Part shown: positions 1,378 through 11,052 of the stretch, one piece after another | Position numbering within the stretch: position 1 is the first letter of the stretch | How the letters are laid out: each line of letters begins with the position of its first letter | Source: Pseudomonadota bacterium | GTDB lineage: Bacteria; Pseudomonadota; Gammaproteobacteria; Burkholderiales; Rhodocyclaceae | Direction of reading: 5' to 3' | NCBI GenBank assembly: GCA_018241725.1 | Contig: JAFEDI010000046.1 | Span: 62,001-126,000, forward strand | Length of the DNA: 64,000 nucleotides | The notes under the pieces: generated by a model | Told to the model about the DNA's origin: nothing | The model's input: the letters and a program-made list of their open reading frames with translations, nothing else | Databases searched by the model: none | Position numbers and translations under genes: made by a program

Positions 1378-3543
1378 TCAGTCCTCCGCTGGCGGCGGCA
1401 GAAGTGGCAGCACTTCCTCGGGAATGAAGAAGGGGCTGTCAAGCATGTCCGCCAGCGCCTCGCAACTTATTGGCATTGCAAACAGATAGCCCTGGATCAG
1501 GTAGCACCCCCGACGGCACAAGGCGTCCAGCTGGGCTGCCGTCTCCACGCCTTCGGCCACCACCTCCAGCCCCAGGCTGTGAGCCAGGCCGATCACCGCC
1601 TCGACGATCGCCACGCCCTGCCCGTCCTCCAGTTCGCTGACGAAGGAACGGTCGATCTTCAGCGCATCCACCGCCAGCCGGCGCAGATAGGCCAGCGACG
1701 AATAGCCGGTGCCAAAGTCGTCCACCGCGACGCGCACGCCCATGTCACGCAACTGGGCAAGAATGGCCGTGGCATGGTCGAGATCGCGCATCAGAACGGT
1801 CTCGGTCAACTCGAATTCCAACCGGGACGCCGCCACGCCGGTAATTGCCAGCACCTCCCGCACGGTGGGGATCAGCTGGGTATCCATGAAGTTAACGCCG
1901 GACAGGTTGATGCTGATGCGGAAATCCGGGGCCAGCCGGTGCTCCAGGCGTAGCAGGTCGGCGCATACCTTCTCCAGCACGCTGCGGGTCAGCGGTACGA
2001 TCAAGCCGGTTTCTTCAGCCAGGGAGATGAACTCCGGCGGCGGTACCGCTCCCCTGCTGGCGTGAGGCCAGCGCAGCAGTGCCTCGGCCTTGACGACCGC
2101 ACGCCGCCGGATGTCCACGATCGGCTGATAACGCATGCGCATCTCGTCCTCGCCGATGGCACGGCGCAGGTCGGTTTCCAGCGTGAAACGCAGGAAAGCC
2201 GCGACCTTCATGTCTTCGGAGAACAGCGCCAGCGGGTCGCCGCGGCTGCGCTTGGCATGGTTGAGCGCCGTCTCGGCCGCCTTCAGCAAGGCGTCGGCAT
2301 CCGTTGCATGATCCGGCATCACCGCCATGCCGATACGCGCCGACAAAGTGATCTCCTGCCCCGGTACGCGGATCGGCGCCCGCACGACCTCCAGCAGGCG
2401 TTCAGCCGTATCGAGCAGATCGGCCGCCGAGCCCACGTCGTTCACCAGCACGCCGAATTCGTCGGCAGCCAGGCGAGCCACCCGGAAACGGGTCGAATAG
2501 CCTCCCCCCGCTGCCTCAGCCGGCTGGCGGTCCCCCATGTCCTCCCGCAGGCGATGGGCGATCAGCTGCAGCACTTGGTCGCCCCGGTCCGGTCCCAGGC
2601 TGTCGTTAATGCGCGCAAAGCGGTCGATATCCACCACCATCACCGCGCAACGGCTGCCGTAGCGCAGACCACGGGCGGTAGCGCCGAGCAGGCTCTCGCG
2701 GAAATACTCCCGGTTGGGCAGGCCGGTAAGATGATCGAAGTAAGCCAGCTGGCGGATGCGCCGCTGGGCATCGACCTGCTCGGTGATGTCCTGCACGCTG
2801 CCCTCCATGACCAGCCCGCTGGCGCCACGCCCATCGTCACGACGCACCGGCTCGACGGTTTCCTGCACCGTACGTACGCTGCCGTCGGGCCACACGACCC
2901 GGTAAGTCAGCTGGTAGCCGACCCCATCCCGGGCTCCGGCCAGGGCGAGTTGCATGGCAGCGCGGTCGGGACCATAGACGTGTGCGAGGAGCGCCTCCAT
3001 GTCATCGCCGAAGTCGCCCCTTTCGCAGCCAAACAGCCGGTAGAACTGAGCCGAACGCCGGACCCGCCCGCTTCTCACCACCCACTCCCAGCTGCCCAGG
3101 CGGGCAATGCGCTGGGCATTAGACAGGCTCTCCTGGCTGAGGCTCAATTCCTGCATCACTTCAGCGGAGCGCAACACGTAGCGGATGCGGAAACGCAACA
3201 GGGTCCAGTTGATCGGCTTGGAGATGAAATCGGTCGCCCCGGCATCGAAGGCCTGCTCGATCGATTCACTATCGTCCAGGCCCGTCAGCATGATCACGGG
3301 CACCAAGCGCCCCGCCGGCAGCTGGCGCAGACGCCGGCACACGTCGAAACCGCTCAGGCCCGGCATCACCACGTCGAGCAGCACCAGATCGGGCGGAGTC
3401 TCATCGAAGAGGTCCAGCGCCTGCACCCCGTCCTCGGCCTCCGACACCGCAAAGCCCCCTTCCCGCAGGGCCTCCGTTGCCATCATGCGGGTCAGCGGAT
3501 CGTCATCCACCACCAAGATGCGCGCGCGTTCGCTTTCAGTCAT
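1378..3543 (-). CDS. Response regulator with PAS, degenerate GGDEF and EAL domains
   Basis: 721 aa. REC domain at 8-125 with phospho-acceptor D57 (LVLLDVVMPG) and K109. A PAS domain follows at about 145-260. The GGDEF domain (265-435) has active-site AADEF at 359-363, so the first two glycines are lost. The EAL domain (about 450-700) has EAL at 487-489 and the DDFGTGYSSLAYL loop intact. Known family behaviour suggests a phosphodiesterase with a GGDEF domain that may bind GTP as a regulator rather than make c-di-GMP. No membrane segment is seen. It lies 30 bp downstream of the Hpt gene on the same strand, so a phosphorelay feeding this receiver is plausible. Confidence 0.87.
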   Translation of the reverse strand: MTESERARILVVDDDPLTRMMATEALREGGFAVSEAEDGVQALDLFDETPPDLVLLDVVMPGLSGFDVCRRLRQLPAGRLVPVIMLTGLDDSESIEQAFDAGATDFISKPINWTLLRFRIRYVLRSAEVMQELSLSQESLSNAQRIARLGSWEWVVRSGRVRRSAQFYRLFGCERGDFGDDMEALLAHVYGPDRAAMQLALAGARDGVGYQLTYRVVWPDGSVRTVQETVEPVRRDDGRGASGLVMEGSVQDITEQVDAQRRIRQLAYFDHLTGLPNREYFRESLLGATARGLRYGSRCAVMVVDIDRFARINDSLGPDRGDQVLQLIAHRLREDMGDRQPAEAAGGGYSTRFRVARLAADEFGVLVNDVGSAADLLDTAERLLEVVRAPIRVPGQEITLSARIGMAVMPDHATDADALLKAAETALNHAKRSRGDPLALFSEDMKVAAFLRFTLETDLRRAIGEDEMRMRYQPIVDIRRRAVVKAEALLRWPHASRGAVPPPEFISLAEETGLIVPLTRSVLEKVCADLLRLEHRLAPDFRISINLSGVNFMDTQLIPTVREVLAITGVAASRLEFELTETVLMRDLDHATAILAQLRDMGVRVAVDDFGTGYSSLAYLRRLAVDALKIDRSFVSELEDGQGVAIVEAVIGLAHSLGLEVVAEGVETAAQLDALCRRGCYLIQGYLFAMPISCEALADMLDSPFFIPEEVLPLLPPPAED

Positions 3544-4302: not shown

Positions 4303-6027
4303 ATGACTGCACCCACTTCTCCGGCCGACGAAGCCGCCACACCCAGCAATTTCATCCGCAGCCTCATCGACGAGGACCGTCGCCTCGGCAAATGGGACGG
4401 ACGGGTCGAAACCCGCTTTCCGCCGGAGCCGAACGGCTACCTGCACTACGGCCACGCCAAGAGCATCTGCCTGAACTTCGGCCTCGCCGAAGCCTACGGC
4501 GGTGCCTGTCACATGCGCTTCGACGACACAAATCCGACCAAGGAAGAACAGGAATACGTCGACGCGATCATCGAGGCCGTACAGTGGCTGGGCTTCAGCT
4601 GGGGCGAACACCTGTATTTCGCGTCGGACTACTTCGACAAGATGTACGCGATGGCCGAGCACCTGATCACCGTCGGCAAGGCCTATGTGGACTCCCTGTC
4701 CGCCGAGGAAATGCGGGCCTATCGCGGCACCCTGTCGGCCCCCGGCAAGGACAGCCCGTACCGCAACCGCAGCGTCACCGAGAACCTTGAGCTGTTCCAG
4801 CGCATGAAAGCCGGCGAGTTCCCCGACGGCACGCACATCCTGCGCGCCAAGATCGACATGGCCTCGCCCAACATCAACCTGCGCGATCCAGCCATCTACC
4901 GCATCCGCCATGCCACGCACCACCGCACTGGCGACCGCTGGTGCGTGTATCCGATGTACACCTTCGCCCATCCGATCGAAGATGCGCTGGAGGACGTGAC
5001 CCACTCCATCTGCACCCTCGAGTTCGAGGATCAGCGCCCGTTCTACGACTGGCTGCTGGACAGCCTCGCCGAAGGTGGCTTCTTCCCACGGCCCGTACCA
5101 CGCCAGATCGAGTTTGCACGCCTCAACCTCACTTATGTGGTGCTGTCCAAGCGCAAGCTGATCCAGCTGGTTGACGAGCAGCACGTGGCCGGCTGGGACG
5201 ACCCGCGCCTGCCAACCCTTGTCGGCGCACGCCGCCGCGGCTTCACGCCGGAGGGTTTCCGCATGTTCGCCGAGCGCATCGGCGTCTCCAAGTCCGACTC
5301 GTGGATCGACATGAGCGTGCTCGAAGACTGCATGCGCGAGCATCTCAACGAGGCTGCCGAACGCCGCGTCGCAGTGCTCGACCCACTCAAGCTGATCATC
5401 ACCAACTATCCGGAAGGCCAGACCGAGCGCTGCCACGCCCCCAACCACCCGCTGCACCCGGAGCTCGGCAAGCGTGAAATGCCGTTCAGCCGGGAACTGT
5501 GGATCGAGCGTGAAGACTTCATGGAAACCCCGGTCAAGGGCTACCACCGCCTCTACCCGGGCAACATGGCACGCCTGCGCTACGGCTTCGTGGTGAAATG
5601 CACCGGTTGCGAGAAGGACGCCGACGGCAACGTGACCGCCGTGCTGTGCGAATACATGCCCGACTCCAAGTCCGGCACGCCGGGCGCCGACAACTATAAG
5701 GTGAAGGGCAATCTGCACTGGGTGTCGGTGGCCCATGCCTATACGGCTGAAGTGCGCCTCTACGACCGCCTGTTCGCCCATGCCTATCCGGGCGCCCGTC
5801 GGGAAGGCGATGCGGAAGGCCTCGAACGCGACTTCCTCGATGACATCAACCCGAACAGCCTGAAAGTCATCACTGCCCAGCTCGAACCAGCGCTGCGTGC
5901 AGCCAGGCCGGAGGCCCGCCTCCAGTTCGAGCGCCACGGCTATTTCGTGGCCGATCGCATGGACTCCCGCGACGGTGCACCGATCTTCAACCGCACCGTC
6001 ACCCTCAGGGATACCTGGAAGAAGTAG
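4303..6027 (+). CDS. glnS: Glutamine--tRNA ligase
   Basis: 574 aa; charges tRNA-Gln with glutamine using ATP in the cytoplasm. Class I synthetase signatures are visible: PEPNGYLHYGHAKS (HIGH-like box), the long catalytic core with FDDTNPTKEEQEYVD, and VLSKRKL as the KMSKS equivalent, followed by the beta-barrel anticodon-binding region ending in RDTWKK. It is slightly longer than the E. coli enzyme. The ATG is preceded by an AAGG ribosome-binding sequence. A TACAAT hexamer at 4237-4242 is a possible -10 element. A presence of GlnRS means the tRNA-dependent amidation route is not the only route to Gln-tRNA. Confidence 0.96.
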   Translation: MTAPTSPADEAATPSNFIRSLIDEDRRLGKWDGRVETRFPPEPNGYLHYGHAKSICLNFGLAEAYGGACHMRFDDTNPTKEEQEYVDAIIEAVQWLGFSWGEHLYFASDYFDKMYAMAEHLITVGKAYVDSLSAEEMRAYRGTLSAPGKDSPYRNRSVTENLELFQRMKAGEFPDGTHILRAKIDMASPNINLRDPAIYRIRHATHHRTGDRWCVYPMYTFAHPIEDALEDVTHSICTLEFEDQRPFYDWLLDSLAEGGFFPRPVPRQIEFARLNLTYVVLSKRKLIQLVDEQHVAGWDDPRLPTLVGARRRGFTPEGFRMFAERIGVSKSDSWIDMSVLEDCMREHLNEAAERRVAVLDPLKLIITNYPEGQTERCHAPNHPLHPELGKREMPFSRELWIEREDFMETPVKGYHRLYPGNMARLRYGFVVKCTGCEKDADGNVTAVLCEYMPDSKSGTPGADNYKVKGNLHWVSVAHAYTAEVRLYDRLFAHAYPGARREGDAEGLERDFLDDINPNSLKVITAQLEPALRAARPEARLQFERHGYFVADRMDSRDGAPIFNRTVTLRDTWKK

Positions 6028-6063
6028 CAGTAATTACCCGGGTCGGCCACCCGGCCCCTCCGG

Positions 6064-6112
6064 GCACCTTCTTCCCGTGGTACGGCGCAAGCCGGCCACG
6101 GGAAGAAGGTGC
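6064..6112. other. Long perfect hairpin downstream of glnS
   Basis: A 17-bp perfect inverted repeat (6064-6080 and 6096-6112) encloses a smaller 4-bp stem, CGGC/GCCG at 83-86 and 91-94 of the 6000s, capped by GCAA. It sits in the 289-bp gap between glnS and the PAS-GGDEF-EAL gene, where no ORF is convincing. There is no U-tract after either arm, so it is not a standard intrinsic terminator. It may be a processing or stabilising hairpin for the glnS transcript, part of a small RNA, or a REP-like element. Confidence 0.6.
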
Positions 6113-6316
6113 AGTTGCAGCGCCCCAAAAATCCGCCTGAAGCAATGCGTGCGGAATTATCCGCAACGGACATGCTGCCGAGGATGCACTCGTCTCAAGC
6201 AATGGGCACAATAGCCGAGTACAAGTGAATAGCGCTGCAGGTATCCTGAACGAATTCACCGCTGCAGTCGCACCTCAACCGACAGCGCTCCCCCCAAGCC
6301 TCCAGGGCCCGACACG

Positions 6317-8752
6317 ATGCTGAGCAAGCTCTCGATCCGCGTCCGTCTGCTGCTGGTCAGTACCGTGGTGCAGGTGGTCATGCTGACCTTGCTGCTGACC
6401 AACAGCGGACGACTGATCAACGAGGCGACAACCGCCAGCCTGAGCACCCTCATCGCCCAGAACGCCGCCATCCTCAATGTGGTCACAGCCGCCTACGTGC
6501 CCCAGGGGCGTTACCAGGATCTTCAGGATGCCCTCGGCGAACTGCTCGGCAACAACCACGAAGGCCTGGTCTATGTCCGCATCGTCGATAGCACCGGACA
6601 ACTGCGGGTCCGCGCCGGCATGCCTGAGATGGACGCGCTGCCGCCCCCCAACGAAGACAGCGCCGGGAGCCTTGGCAACTATGTCGGACAGACACTGATC
6701 CACGTGCACCGCCCGGTGCTGCTGGAGCACAACCAGGTCGGCTTCGTGCAGTTCGGCGTGTCCATCGCTCCGCTGGTGCAGGCCAAGCAGCGCATCCTTA
6801 ACCAGGGCATTGCCATCGCCAGCGCCGAGGTGCTGATCACCCTGCTGCTGCTCGGTGCCATCGGCTATCTGCTGACCCGCAACCTGGGGCGTCTGCTGCG
6901 TGGCAGCCAGGCCATCGCAGCCGGACGCCTGTCCCACCGCCTGCCAGAACAGGGCAACGACGAGCTGGCGCAACTATGTCGTCACTTCAACCGCATGGCC
7001 GCCGCACTGCAGTCGCGCATCCAGGAACTGGAGAGCACCGCCCGCCAGCTGGCCCTCAGCGAGGAACGCTACGCACTGGCCACGCGAGCCGCCAATGACG
7101 GCCTGTGGGACTGGGACATCGCCAACGACCAGACTTATTTTGCCCCGCGCTTCGCCGAAATCCTCGGCCTGTCGTTCAACGCCTTCACCGAGGAAAAGCG
7201 CTCGATCATCGATTACCTCCATCCGGACGACCGGGAGCCCTTCCGCCTGCGCGTGATTGCCCACCTGAAGCGGGAGTCCGCCCAGCTGATGGCCGAGCAC
7301 CGCATCCGCCATGCAGATGGCGACTACCGCTGGATCCTCATCTGCGGCATGGCCGTGTACGACCCGACCAGCGGACGGGCGATCCGCATGGCGGGCTCGA
7401 TCAGCGACATCAATCTACGCAAGCGCGCTGAAGACCAACTCATCCACGACGCCCTGCACGACGGCCTGACGGGACTCGCCAACCGGGCACTCTTCGTCGA
7501 GCACCTGCAGAACACCCTTCTCCACGCGGACCGGGCCACCGGCAACCTGTTCGCGGTCCTGCATATCAACATCGAGCGTTTCCACGTGGTCAACGACAGT
7601 CTGGGGTATTCGGCCGGCGACGACCTGCTGCGCCTCGTTGCATCCCGGATCTGCGCACTGGCCCGTCCCGGCGACGTGGTCGGACGGGTGGCCGGCGATC
7701 AGTTCGCAGTACTCCTCAACGACATCCCGGACGCCGGCGAAGCGATCCGCTTTTCGGAAAACCTGCAGACCCAACTGGCCGAGAGCGCCGAGCTCAACGG
7801 CCATCGGCTCTACCCCAAGACACGCATCGGCGTTGTACTCGGCAGCGGCGGCTTCCACAGCGCGGAAGACCTGATGCGCGATGCCGACAATGCCATGCAC
7901 CGCTCCCGCAGTAGCGCGGAGGCCTCCATCACGGTTTTCCAGTCGGCCATGCATCAACAGGTCCTCCGCGACCTGCAGATCGAGTCCCAACTACGGGCAG
8001 CCCTGAGCAATCACCAGCTGGTCGCTCACTTCCAGCCCATCGTCGATCTGCGCGACGGCCGCACGACGGGCTTTGAAGCCCTCGTCCGCTGGCCTCAGGC
8101 CAGCGCCAGGCGCATCGGCCCGGACGTCTTCATCCCCGTCGCCGAATCCCTCGGTCTGGTTCACGAACTCGGCATGCAGATGCTCGACCAAAGCTGCGCC
8201 TGCCTGAAGGCCTGGCGCGAGCAGGGCCTCGCCGACGAGAAGCTGTCGATCAGCGTCAACCTTTCGGCCCGCCAGCTCACCCAGGCCGATCTGGCCGACC
8301 AGGTCGTCGCCTGCATCGAGCGCCACGGCCTGCCACCCGCTGCACTCAAGCTGGAGATTACCGAGGGCACCCTGGTCACGCGCAAGGAACTGGCCATGCA
8401 CCAACTCGGCAAGCTGCGGGCCAAGGGCCTGCGCATCCTCATCGACGACTTTGGCACCGGCTATTCTTCCCTGAGCTATCTTCATTCGATTCCCTGCGAC
8501 ACGATCAAGCTGGACGGCTCCTTCGTCCGCGAGATCGAGATCATTCCCCGCCTGCGCACCATCGTCGAAGGCAGCATCCGCCTGGCCCACGAACTGGGCA
8601 TGAGCGTCGTCGCCGAGTGCATCGAAACCCCCAGCCAGGCCGACATGCTCCGGGATCTTGGCTGTGACTACGGCCAAGGCTACCTGTTTGCCGCTGCCGA
8701 GCCTGCCGACAAGATCCGGCAGCGCCTTGAAGCCCAGAGAGGTGGAACGTGA
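6317..8752 (+). CDS. Membrane HAMP-PAS-GGDEF-EAL cyclic-di-GMP protein
   Basis: 811 aa. Transmembrane helix 1 lies at about 11-30 and helix 2 at about 165-187; they enclose a periplasmic sensor of about 135 residues with no family I can name. HAMP follows (190-240), then PAS (250-370), GGDEF (about 375-545) and EAL (about 555-800). The GGDEF active site reads AGDQF (459-463), which is unlikely to be a competent cyclase. The EAL motif (587-589) and DDFGTGYSSLSYL loop are intact, so phosphodiesterase activity is the better guess. Its TGA overlaps the GTG of the next gene (GTGA), so it is coupled to an outer-membrane protein and, beyond it, a periplasmic binding-like protein. That context suggests it reads a periplasmic or surface signal. 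Confidence 0.88.
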   Translation: MLSKLSIRVRLLLVSTVVQVVMLTLLLTNSGRLINEATTASLSTLIAQNAAILNVVTAAYVPQGRYQDLQDALGELLGNNHEGLVYVRIVDSTGQLRVRAGMPEMDALPPPNEDSAGSLGNYVGQTLIHVHRPVLLEHNQVGFVQFGVSIAPLVQAKQRILNQGIAIASAEVLITLLLLGAIGYLLTRNLGRLLRGSQAIAAGRLSHRLPEQGNDELAQLCRHFNRMAAALQSRIQELESTARQLALSEERYALATRAANDGLWDWDIANDQTYFAPRFAEILGLSFNAFTEEKRSIIDYLHPDDREPFRLRVIAHLKRESAQLMAEHRIRHADGDYRWILICGMAVYDPTSGRAIRMAGSISDINLRKRAEDQLIHDALHDGLTGLANRALFVEHLQNTLLHADRATGNLFAVLHINIERFHVVNDSLGYSAGDDLLRLVASRICALARPGDVVGRVAGDQFAVLLNDIPDAGEAIRFSENLQTQLAESAELNGHRLYPKTRIGVVLGSGGFHSAEDLMRDADNAMHRSRSSAEASITVFQSAMHQQVLRDLQIESQLRAALSNHQLVAHFQPIVDLRDGRTTGFEALVRWPQASARRIGPDVFIPVAESLGLVHELGMQMLDQSCACLKAWREQGLADEKLSISVNLSARQLTQADLADQVVACIERHGLPPAALKLEITEGTLVTRKELAMHQLGKLRAKGLRILIDDFGTGYSSLSYLHSIPCDTIKLDGSFVREIEIIPRLRTIVEGSIRLAHELGMSVVAECIETPSQADMLRDLGCDYGQGYLFAAAEPADKIRQRLEAQRGGT

Positions 8753-9948
8753 AGCGCCTGAATACATTGCTTCTTTCTCTTGCCGCGCTGATTGCACAGG
8801 TGGCGCAAGCGGACACGCCATCCCCGCTGAGTTTGTCCGGCTTCGGCACCCTGGGCGCAGCGCGCACTGACAACGCCAACCGGGCTTTCCGCTCCAACAG
8901 CGTCAGCGACTCCGGTGCGGGTGCCGCCTTCGACCTGTCCGTCGACTCCGTGCTCGGAGTACAAGGATCCCTTCAGCTCTGCAACCGCCTCGATCTGACA
9001 GTGCAATCCGTGGTCCGCAAGAGCCCCACGGGCAGCTACGACCCACGCATCACCTGGGCATTCGCGAGCTACCAGGCCACCCCGGAACTACTGCTGCGGA
9101 TCGGCCGCACGCGGCTGCCCTTCTTCATGTATTCCGATTCGCTGAACCTCAACTATGCGAATCCGTGGATCCGGCCACCCGTCGAGGTCTACAGCCTGAA
9201 CCCACTCTCCGACATCGACGGGGCCGATGCGCTGTACCGTCGGCAGTTCGCCGACACAGACGTGGAGCTGCATGCCTATACCGGGAGCAGCGCGATGAAC
9301 ATCCGCGGCGGCTCGGCCAACCTCGACAAGATCCGGGGCCTGAAAGCCTCCTTCAGCCGCCGCGGCCTCACGGCCCAGATCAGCTACGCCCGGGCGGACA
9401 TGTCCCTGCGCTGGTCAGACGCCTATTTCCTCAGCTTGAGGCAGGCCCTCATTGCGACCGGCCACGACGCCATCGTGCCAGAGCTCTCCGGCACCGACGG
9501 CAAGACCAGCTTCATGTCGGCCGCTCTGCAATACGACCAGGACCGCCTGCTGCTGATAGCCGAAATCGCTCGCCGCAATGTGGACCGCTACATTGACACC
9601 GCACTCGGCTGGTATGTCACTGCCGGCTACCGGACGGGAGCCTTCATGCCTTACCTGACCCTGGCCCGCCAGCGGGAAGTCTCTCCGGTCAGCACCGCGG
9701 CCACCGGGGTCGCCGTACTCGATGACGGTCTGGCAGCCTTCAACGCCGGACGCAACAAGGCCCAGCGCAGCATCGGAGCCGGCCTGCGCTGGGACGCCGG
9801 ACGCAATGTCGCAGTGAAAGCCCAGTTCGAGCGCATCCAGCCGGGCCCAGGCGGACTCGGAATCCTCCTCCCCAACCAGCTCACCGACTACCTGAAGCCC
9901 GATGGACCGACCTATGTCCTGAGTCTTGCCGTGGACTTCGTGTTTTGA
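8749..9948 (+). CDS. Porin-like outer-membrane beta-barrel protein
   Basis: 399 aa from a GTG start that overlaps the upstream stop by 4 bp. A signal peptide (MKRLNTLLLSLAALIAQVAQA) ends at about residue 21. The mature part opens LSLSGFGTLGAARTDN and shows alternating-strand composition with many aromatic-capped strands. It ends VLSLAVDFVF, with the C-terminal Phe expected of BAM substrates. The sequence is not close to the general porin at 13554. Family is best described as a porin-like barrel of unknown cargo. Coupling to a c-di-GMP enzyme and a binding-protein-like gene suggests uptake or sensing of a small ligand at the cell surface. Confidence 0.75.
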   Translation: MKRLNTLLLSLAALIAQVAQADTPSPLSLSGFGTLGAARTDNANRAFRSNSVSDSGAGAAFDLSVDSVLGVQGSLQLCNRLDLTVQSVVRKSPTGSYDPRITWAFASYQATPELLLRIGRTRLPFFMYSDSLNLNYANPWIRPPVEVYSLNPLSDIDGADALYRRQFADTDVELHAYTGSSAMNIRGGSANLDKIRGLKASFSRRGLTAQISYARADMSLRWSDAYFLSLRQALIATGHDAIVPELSGTDGKTSFMSAALQYDQDRLLLIAEIARRNVDRYIDTALGWYVTAGYRTGAFMPYLTLARQREVSPVSTAATGVAVLDDGLAAFNAGRNKAQRSIGAGLRWDAGRNVAVKAQFERIQPGPGGLGILLPNQLTDYLKPDGPTYVLSLAVDFVF

Positions 9949-9953
9949 GCCCC

Positions 9954-10376
9954 ATGCATTCGGCCAGAACCCTCCTCCTGCTTTTTTCCGGCCTGTTTGC
10001 GCCGGCCTTCAGCCACGCGGAACTCGTGCTGGTTGCCAGCGTACGCAACCCGGCCATGGAACTCAGCCATGAACGCGCTGAAAACCTCTACCTGGGCTCC
10101 ACCACCACCCTGGCTGACGGCACGCCCGTCAAGCTCATGGACCTGCCCAACGGAGCCTCGCGCGACGACTTCTATCTGAAGCTGACCGGCAAGAATCCGG
10201 CGCAGATCCGCGCTTACTGGTCCCGCCTGGTCTTCACAGGCCGCGCGCTGCCTCCCCGGGAAGCCAACTCGATCGCCGAAGCGCGCCAATGGCTGATTGA
10301 TACACCCAACTTGGTCGGCTACATGGAACGTACCGACGTTCCACCCGGCGCCCGCATCCTGTTGCGCCTTCCCTGA
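9954..10376 (+). CDS. Small periplasmic PstS-like (phosphate-binding-like) protein
   Basis: 140 aa from the ATG at 9954; an in-frame TTG at 9945 overlaps the preceding stop and would add three residues. Signal peptide to about FSHA. The mature 120 residues resemble the half-size substrate-binding-like proteins annotated as phosphate ABC transporter substrate-binding: LVASVRNPAMELSHERAENLY, a GxxTTLADG segment, RDDFYLKLTGKNPAQIRAYW and a final GYMERTDVPPGARILLRL. It is too short for a two-lobed binding protein, and no permease or ATPase gene is near. It is the third member of the cassette starting at 6317, so a signalling role is more likely than transport. The ligand is unknown. Confidence 0.75.
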   Translation: MHSARTLLLLFSGLFAPAFSHAELVLVASVRNPAMELSHERAENLYLGSTTTLADGTPVKLMDLPNGASRDDFYLKLTGKNPAQIRAYWSRLVFTGRALPPREANSIAEARQWLIDTPNLVGYMERTDVPPGARILLRLP

Positions 10377-10394
10377 AGGGGAAGCAAGGTCGGT

Positions 10395-10423
10395 TTGACG
10401 CAACGATCGTCTTCACATATACT
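10395..10423 (+). promoter_or_regulatory. Sigma70-type promoter of rplU-rpmA
   Basis: TTGACG (10395-10400) and TATACT (10418-10423) are separated by 17 bp, about 40 bp upstream of the rplU start codon. This is the cleanest consensus promoter in the window. Confidence 0.8.
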
Positions 10424-10461
10424 TGCGCGTTTCCTGCAAACTCTTTACTCGGAGTACATCC

Positions 10462-10773
10462 ATGTACGCGGTCATAAAAACCGGCGGCAAGCAGTATCGC
10501 GTCGTCGTCGGCGAAAAACTCAAAGTAGAACAGATACCGGCTGACGTGGACTCGCAAATCACTCTCGACCAAGTCTTCATGGTCGGCGAAGGCGAGTCGG
10601 TCAAGATCGGCACCCCTGTTGTGGCTGGCGCCACCGTCACGGCCACCGTGGTTTCCCACGGCCGTCACGACAAGATCAAGATCTTCAAGATGCGTCGTCG
10701 CAAGCACTACCAGAAGCATCAGGGTCACCGTCAGAACTACACCGAGCTGCGCATCGACGCGATCTCGGCCTAA
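10462..10773 (+). CDS. rplU: 50S ribosomal protein L21
   Basis: 103 aa. The start is the ATG opening [14 protein letters not shown], the invariant L21 N-terminus, with GGAG upstream; a longer reading from 10423 is not supported. The C-terminal [22 protein letters not shown] is the basic 23S rRNA-contacting tail. It is followed after 12 bp by rpmA and is driven by the promoter at 10395-10423. Confidence 0.97.
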
Positions 10774-10785
10774 GGAGAATCCGAC

Positions 10786-11052
10786 ATGGCACACAAAAAG
10801 GCTGGCGGCAGTTCACGTAACGGCCGCGACTCAGAAAGCAAACGCCTTGGCGTCAAGCGCTACGGCGGTCAATTCGTTCTCGCCGGCAACATCATCGTTC
10901 GCCAGCGCGGCACCGAATACCACCCGGGCGAAAACGTCGGCATCGGCAAGGATCACACCCTGTTCGCGCTGACCGAAGGCACCGTTCAGTTCACCGTCAA
11001 GGGCGCCACCAAGCGTCGCACCGTGAACATCGTGCCCGCCGCCGCTGAATAA
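10786..11052 (+). CDS. rpmA: 50S ribosomal protein L27
   Basis: 88 aa, opening [20 protein letters not shown], the standard L27 N-terminal arm that reaches the peptidyl-transferase centre. The N-terminus has no extra cleavable leader of the Firmicutes type. It is the second gene of rplU-rpmA and ends 19 bp before a strong terminator. Confidence 0.97.

Follow-up and report, generated by a model that had tools for sequence, protein, structure and literature searches.

The stretch of DNA analysed here (the window) comprises 64,000 nucleotides from a member of the Rhodocyclaceae (GenBank assembly GCA_018241725.1, contig JAFEDI010000046.1, positions 62,001 to 126,000 of the forward strand). Three genes of this window, arranged head to tail, encode a membrane receptor with GGDEF and EAL domains, a porin-like protein and a small PstS-like protein, in this order (Table 1). 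As judged by profile alignment, the porin and the small protein are homologous to the products of vpvA/vpvB-type genes of Vibrio, and the trio is probably a VpvABC-like sensing operon that spans the cell envelope and has the breakdown of cyclic diguanosine monophosphate (c-di-GMP) as its output.

Table 1. Features of the trio in window coordinates, followed by related units elsewhere in the same genome (aa, amino acids; TM, transmembrane helix; PBP, periplasmic binding protein)
Feature	Position	Strand	Description
Membrane receptor/enzyme	6317..8752	+	811 aa: TM1, periplasmic sensor, TM2, HAMP, PAS_3, degenerate GGDEF, EAL; predicted c-di-GMP phosphodiesterase
Periplasmic sensor of the receptor, residues 31-157	6407..6787	+	Between two hydrophobic helices
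AGDQF replacing GG[D/E]EF, receptor residues 459-463	7691..7705	+	
EAL domain of the receptor	7988..8695	+	Checked catalytic residues complete
VpvA-type porin	8749..9948	+	399 aa, N-terminal signal peptide (by eye)
VpvB-type single-lobe PstS-like protein ("mini-PBP")	9954..10376	+	140 aa, N-terminal signal peptide (by eye)
Sigma-70-like site between operon end and rplU	10395..10423	+	Consensus match only, at chance number
C76			Porin, small protein, hybrid histidine kinase; own-genome paralogue
C27			Hybrid histidine kinase, porin, small protein; own-genome paralogue
C42	L009 8123-10659		Chemoreceptor ending in PilZ (Pfam), then mini-PBP, contig end
C150	L010 48-2584		Chemoreceptor reading as two open reading frames, then mini-PBP, contig end
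C10			Small protein, then porin; 3.2-kb contig, own-genome paralogue
C142			Divergent outer-membrane protein, then small protein; hit by the porin profile at 2.1e-10 in a search of its own, Porin_O_P slightly below cut-off

The open reading frames (ORFs) are found where an earlier note, made from the sequence alone, had placed them, and their products are predicted for the inner membrane, the outer membrane and the periplasm, as stated there. The trio looks like a single operon, as the note had proposed, and is conserved as a block. The stop codon of the receptor gene overlaps the GTG start of the porin gene in the tetranucleotide GTGA, and the ATG start of the small-protein gene follows the porin gene after a gap of 5 bp (an alternative, overlapping TTG start lies at 9945). 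In a consensus scan of positions 5900-10800, terminator-like sites were absent (3.1 expected in shuffles) and a single promoter-like site appeared, the one ahead of rplU (0.8 expected), so that the scan says little either way on transcription.

Orthologs of the small protein were found in 18 of 22 other genomes of the same genus (E <= 3.3e-44) and in one genome from another genus of the family (E 6.5e-42). Sixteen of the 18 same-genus loci hold whole trios and the other two are cut by contig ends, so that the block passes the test of co-occurrence in relatives on which the earlier note had staked its proposal. In the four genomes of the genus that lack the small protein (completeness 80, 82, 100 and 80%), the receptor had no match at E <= 1e-100 and the porin none at E <= 1e-10, the porin search having no positive control within it, while the same query recovers its own locus in a separate search. 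In the genus the trio thus seems to be either complete or missing altogether. Its surroundings are conserved as well: glnS lies upstream of all 16 complete trios and rplU downstream of 15; in the remaining one a contig end cuts the locus. Neither gene was found within the 8.5-kb region around the locus of the other genus. Within the genus, the receptors are 73-82% identical to that of the window, the porins 46-60% and the small proteins 58-72%; three closer relatives reach 76-98%. In the 17 same-genus loci in which rplU is seen, including the two cut ones, it begins about 1.0-1.15 kb past the small protein in 13 and about 0.1 kb past it in four. The window, where the distance is about 85 bp, resembles these four and not the 13.

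Pfam recognizes HAMP, PAS_3, GGDEF and EAL domains in the receptor, whose two hydrophobic helices lie around residues 9-27 and 164-183. The residues of the EAL domain needed for catalysis (E, N, E, DD, K, E, Q) are complete in the window enzyme, and in 63 GGDEF-EAL receptors linked to a porin/small-protein pair they are kept in 60-63 sequences, with two true departures and the remainder gaps; the A of the EAL motif is conserved in 56 of the 63. The GGDEF motif is degenerate in the window-type receptors, which read GGDQF (14/18) or, like the window copy, AGDQF (4/18). A degenerate GGDEF domain next to an intact EAL domain implies that the receptor should be a phosphodiesterase degrading c-di-GMP, the output that had been proposed from the letters alone.

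The VpvABC system of V. cholerae (vibrio phase variation operon) comprises the porin VpvA, the periplasmic binding protein VpvB and the membrane cyclase VpvC (PMC12456836). When window-family and Vibrio-type profiles were compared with hhalign, the porins (19 versus four sequences) scored 100% (E 6.5e-42) and the small proteins (20 versus five) 99.6% (E 1e-23), two decoys giving 0.1%. Single Vibrio-type proteins were also matched directly by BLASTP, the porin at E 3.7e-26 to 1.5e-11 and the small protein at E 1.7e-19 to 4e-11, in databases of four or five sequences. For comparison, the porin profile matches one of 201 mechanically called window ORFs of at least 100 aa; Porin_4 of Pfam hits the porin-like protein at E 6.9e-6 with 26.5 bits, below the cut-off of 27. 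The Vibrio-type loci were identified by position, the V. cholerae sequences themselves lying outside the comparison set. In locus L154, V. mexicanus and V. profundi, porin, small-protein and GGDEF genes stand beside genes that we take, from reading their sequences, to be varS and acpS-pdxJ-recO-era-rnc; V. aestivus has the same neighbors with the porin not called, and these neighbors are absent from the V. maerlii and V. mytili loci. VarS is VC2453 (PMC12051071), and vpvABC (VC2456-VC2454) is next to it by locus number. A tryptophan at position 237 or 238, possibly W240 of VpvC, is present in three of six cyclases examined.

Because two of the three partners are homologous to Vibrio vpv-type proteins, VpvABC is the closest known system. 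Both operons combine a porin, a small periplasmic binding protein and an inner-membrane receptor of the GGDEF family, with the same proposed logic. They differ in gene order (receptor-porin-small protein in the window, porin-small protein-cyclase in VpvABC) and in the receptor, which in the window has PAS, EAL and degenerate GGDEF domains and lacks the intact GGDEF motif of an active cyclase such as VpvC; the periplasmic sensors of the two are unmatched by sequence. The earlier note had likened the trio to YfiN-YfiR-YfiB, a likeness for which VpvABC is the better match. YfiBNR, the TpbB system, is likewise a tripartite control of a c-di-GMP enzyme across inner membrane, periplasm and outer membrane, and is built from YfiR, the OmpA-like YfiB and the CHASE8-bearing YfiN. 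None of the three window proteins matches YfiR, OmpA-like YfiB or CHASE8 in Pfam at E <= 1, which rules out YfiBNR as the identity of the trio and agrees with the caveat in the note itself that no partner was a YfiR or YfiB homolog.

Searched by itself, the small protein matches nothing in Pfam or NCBIfam at E <= 1, and its best sequence match in the PDB (E 0.48) is not significant. Its family profile, used against the PDB with hmmsearch, matches PstS (1.3e-10); of 27 family members, seven match PBP_like_2 and nine match ptsS_2. An AlphaFold2 (AF2) model built from 71 sequences reached a pLDDT of 93, and a structure search with it gave PstS proteins as the best PDB matches (E 3e-6, TM-score 0.63 by query and 0.35 by target); over all 18 PDB matches at E <= 0.001, the TM-score by target length is 0.27-0.39. 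On the basis of this structure match and of the profile alignment, the predicted fold can be read as approximately one lobe of PstS, and 140 aa do not provide its two-lobe architecture. The SGT-like anion-loop motif occurs in two of 236 family members; what the family shares instead is a conserved YW.RL.F.G...PP signature. With about one lobe and without the SGT anion loop, a flytrap mechanism is unlikely; it is more likely that the protein is an adaptor, or that any ligand would be bound at an interface. By eye, the ORF list of 4.5-12.5 kb contains no ATP-binding cassette (ABC) genes beside the trio, no profile search having been made. The description of a half-size, PstS-like protein with no adjacent ABC genes therefore stands from the earlier note, and the idea of a classical ligand binder is weakened.

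How far the pair of porin and small protein extends was surveyed with a 27-member small-protein profile against 398 Pseudomonadota genomes (E <= 1e-6). It matched 74 genomes, ten of which had weaker matches only (E 8e-12 or worse), several in PstS-length frames, leaving 64 including that of the window. Eighty regions were taken, 62 being the best hits of a genome and 18 further paralogs chosen by hand, and the counts below for 63 genomes use one locus each (the 62 best hits and L106). A porin lies in a same-strand chain with the small protein in 62 of the 63. Over all small proteins collected, in samples that were partly chosen, the linkage holds for 225 of 238, and several exceptions touch contig ends. 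Receptors were classified with profiles grown from single seeds of the window or its genome, within 350 bp and on the same strand, so that a receptor class outside these profiles would count as none found; where receptors occurred on both flanks the upstream one was counted, and in two of the loci assigned to GGDEF a kinase lies downstream as well. The neighbor of the pair is a chemoreceptor in 16 genomes, a histidine kinase in 12, a GGDEF protein in 11, a GGDEF-EAL protein in eight and none found in 16. The further loci L223-L302 were picked by similarity to a Vibrio-type query and lean toward c-di-GMP receptors. With a porin beside 62 of 63 small proteins and receptors of four different classes, the pair looks like an interchangeable sensing unit. 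On a FastTree tree of the small protein the output class changes 16 times with three classes and 27 times with four, compared with means of 57 and 91 in 200 shuffles (175 labelled rows); the classes thus cluster, yet have switched repeatedly, as far as this tree holds. The genome of the window itself has seven small-protein matches, its own included (Table 1).

Tandem arrays of two consecutive porin/mini-PBP units were seen at L093, L103, L147, L160 and L266, and at L161, L173, L178, L205 and L206, from five genomes of genus code g72, which looks like Vibrio, mini-PBP and porin come after a large histidine kinase of about 900-1100 aa. The mini-PBPs of L009 and L010 are nearly identical and their chemoreceptors, by eye, are not. 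In three annotated plasmid records the small protein stands beside a gene named porin (one record) or beside unnamed porin-sized genes (two); all three annotate it as "phosphate ABC transporter substrate-binding protein", and one has an EAL protein next in line. A plasmid of Alteromonas mediterranea (L305 4489-9387) carries the mini-PBP gene and the next, porin-sized "hypothetical" gene beside the csf genes of a type IV CRISPR system.

The periplasmic sensor of the window receptor has no Pfam match and no sequence match among the other receptors; it constitutes a sequence family of its own with 18 members among the collected receptors, all of them GGDEF-EAL proteins. Of the 147 receptors other than chemoreceptors whose N-terminus is long enough, 93 belong to one family, seeded on a VpvC-like cyclase (47 GGDEF, 29 GGDEF-EAL and 17 histidine kinases), a third family comprises six kinases, and 30 receptors fall outside all three. 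The GGDEF motif is kept in 40 of the 47 VpvC-type GGDEF-only receptors. Nine of the 29 VpvC-type GGDEF-EAL receptors lack the glutamate in the fourth position of the motif (AADIF, GGDKY, SADVF, TDDRF, SADTF, AGDRF, AADTF, SGDRF, GGDDF), and by these motifs a phosphodiesterase-leaning output probably arose among VpvC-type receptors as well. An AF2 model of the N-terminal 380 residues of the window receptor (pLDDT 80, pTM 0.45) suggests, with moderate confidence, a small alpha/beta sensor domain, the block-mean pLDDT over residues 31-157 being 55-89. Foldseek returned mostly PAS/LOV domains for this model; its top hit, the integrative WalK-YycH model 9a5d (366 columns, TM-score 0.43 by query, root-mean-square deviation 11), is too weak to name the sensor fold.

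Other work on V. cholerae provides a frame for these data. VpvA and VpvB have been reported to contribute to c-di-GMP levels, and vpvAB without vpvC occurs across many Gamma- and Betaproteobacteria, such as Shewanella, Alteromonas, Duganella, Roseateles, Xanthomonas, Janthinobacterium, Thauera and others, which led the authors to suggest that VpvAB is a conserved sensing unit that was linked to VpvC later (PMC12456836). Such VpvAB-only pairs are the same porin/small-protein unit as in the window; other genes linked to them are not described in the sections of that paper covered here, and their partners are classified in the present survey. In another study vpvA and vpvB are termed hypothetical (PMC8754643). 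Titles and abstract openings, with most subscription journals outside the coverage, gave no description of the pair beside kinases, chemoreceptors or phosphodiesterases. The new elements here are an enzyme with a predicted inverted output, a sensor that forms its own family and the breadth of receptors beside the pair.

In the VpvABC-like operon that we propose, the porin would admit an extracellular signal, perhaps a ligand, to the periplasm, or would itself report the state of the outer membrane. Working together with the porin, the single-lobe PstS-like protein would relay this state, possibly by direct contact, to the periplasmic domain of the receptor, from which the signal would pass through TM2, HAMP and PAS to the EAL phosphodiesterase, the GGDEF domain being presumably catalytically dead. 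By analogy with VpvA and VpvB, the pair would activate the receptor, so that c-di-GMP would fall and motility or dispersal might be favored. The scheme of the earlier note, in which the barrel admits a ligand, the small protein senses it and the enzyme responds, is essentially the published VpvABC model (PMC12456836) and survives in this outline, its weak point being the ligand-binding role of the small protein. Moreover, there is about an even chance that the VpvAB-type pair serves generally as an exchangeable front end at the envelope and has repeatedly been joined to cyclases, phosphodiesterases, hybrid histidine kinases and chemoreceptors; in this reading the half-PstS protein would be an adaptor, and no flytrap, that reports the porin state to the receptor, and the trio of the window would be an inverted c-di-GMP version.

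Receptor-activating solute-binding proteins of the NspS-MbaA type are full two-lobe proteins of other families and have no known porin partner; XAC2383-XAC2382 is another such pair of binding protein and receptor. Like the predicted unit of the window, these systems have a periplasmic binding protein steering a membrane receptor. Solute-binding proteins are known to act on chemoreceptors, kinases and c-di-GMP enzymes alike (PMC9602780).

Several observations weigh against a VpvABC-like sensing operon. Sixteen of the 63 units have no receptor of the searched classes within 350 bp. In a mirror-tree comparison (84 pairs), the distance correlation between small protein and sensor (0.79) does not stand out from those between small protein and porin (0.77) and between porin and sensor (0.76), and such correlations do not separate co-evolution from shared descent. 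The window sensor and the VpvC-type sensor score 1.2% in a sensor-only hhalign, so that VpvC is not a clear homologous partner; the 95% reached with a longer stretch comes from the second sensor half together with TM2, HAMP and the linker. A distant paralog of the receptor in the same genome (contig C42, L308 5103-7520, minus strand, GGDEF-EAL, 805 aa) is 28% identical over residues 6-777 and matches the window sensor profile weakly (E 3.4e-4), and the 14.5 kb around it contain no porin or mini-PBP hit, so that a receptor of this kind may work without the pair. In one study, deletion of vpvABC left smooth-to-rugose switching in V. cholerae unchanged (PMC8754643).

The alternative that survives best, although we consider it rather unlikely, is that the small protein is a dedicated partner of the porin (assembly factor, plug or gate) and that the receptor senses porin load or envelope state, not a carried ligand. 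In its favor are a porin linkage that is near-universal, beside a receptor linkage of 47/63, and a single lobe without the SGT loop, which speaks against flytrap binding; the recurrence of the pair beside very different receptors and the reported contribution of VpvB to c-di-GMP levels (PMC12456836) argue against it. It is less probable still, and in our view improbable, that the receptor is a c-di-GMP-binding relay that uses the pair as its sensor and has no phosphodiesterase activity. LapD-type proteins also combine HAMP, GGDEF and EAL domains, and the degenerate GGDEF of the window receptor would fit; however, LapD EAL domains are degenerate, whereas the window receptor and almost all of the 63 receptors keep the EAL residues required for catalysis. 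Very improbable is an uptake pair for phosphate or another anion, co-transcribed with the c-di-GMP enzyme for co-regulation only, since the kinship with PstS, the public annotation and the sub-threshold Porin_O_P matches of two own-genome paralogue-unit outer-membrane proteins are opposed by the missing half of PstS, the absent anion loop, the lack of ABC genes seen by eye and the linkage to four receptor classes.

A biofilm phenotype of Vibrio is under the control of VpvABC, in which the mode of action of porin and small protein is not settled. If the VpvAB-type pair is indeed a general front end, one sensing unit would account for many proteins that are annotated as "phosphate-binding" without being transporters, and what is learned of ligand or mechanism from one receptor class should hold for the rest. 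The VpvC-type sensor shared by cyclase, GGDEF-EAL and kinase receptors offers ready comparisons. A second c-di-GMP protein (receiver-PAS_3-GGDEF-EAL, 721 aa) is encoded at positions 1378-3543 of the window on the minus strand, opposite to the trio and about 2.8 kb before it.

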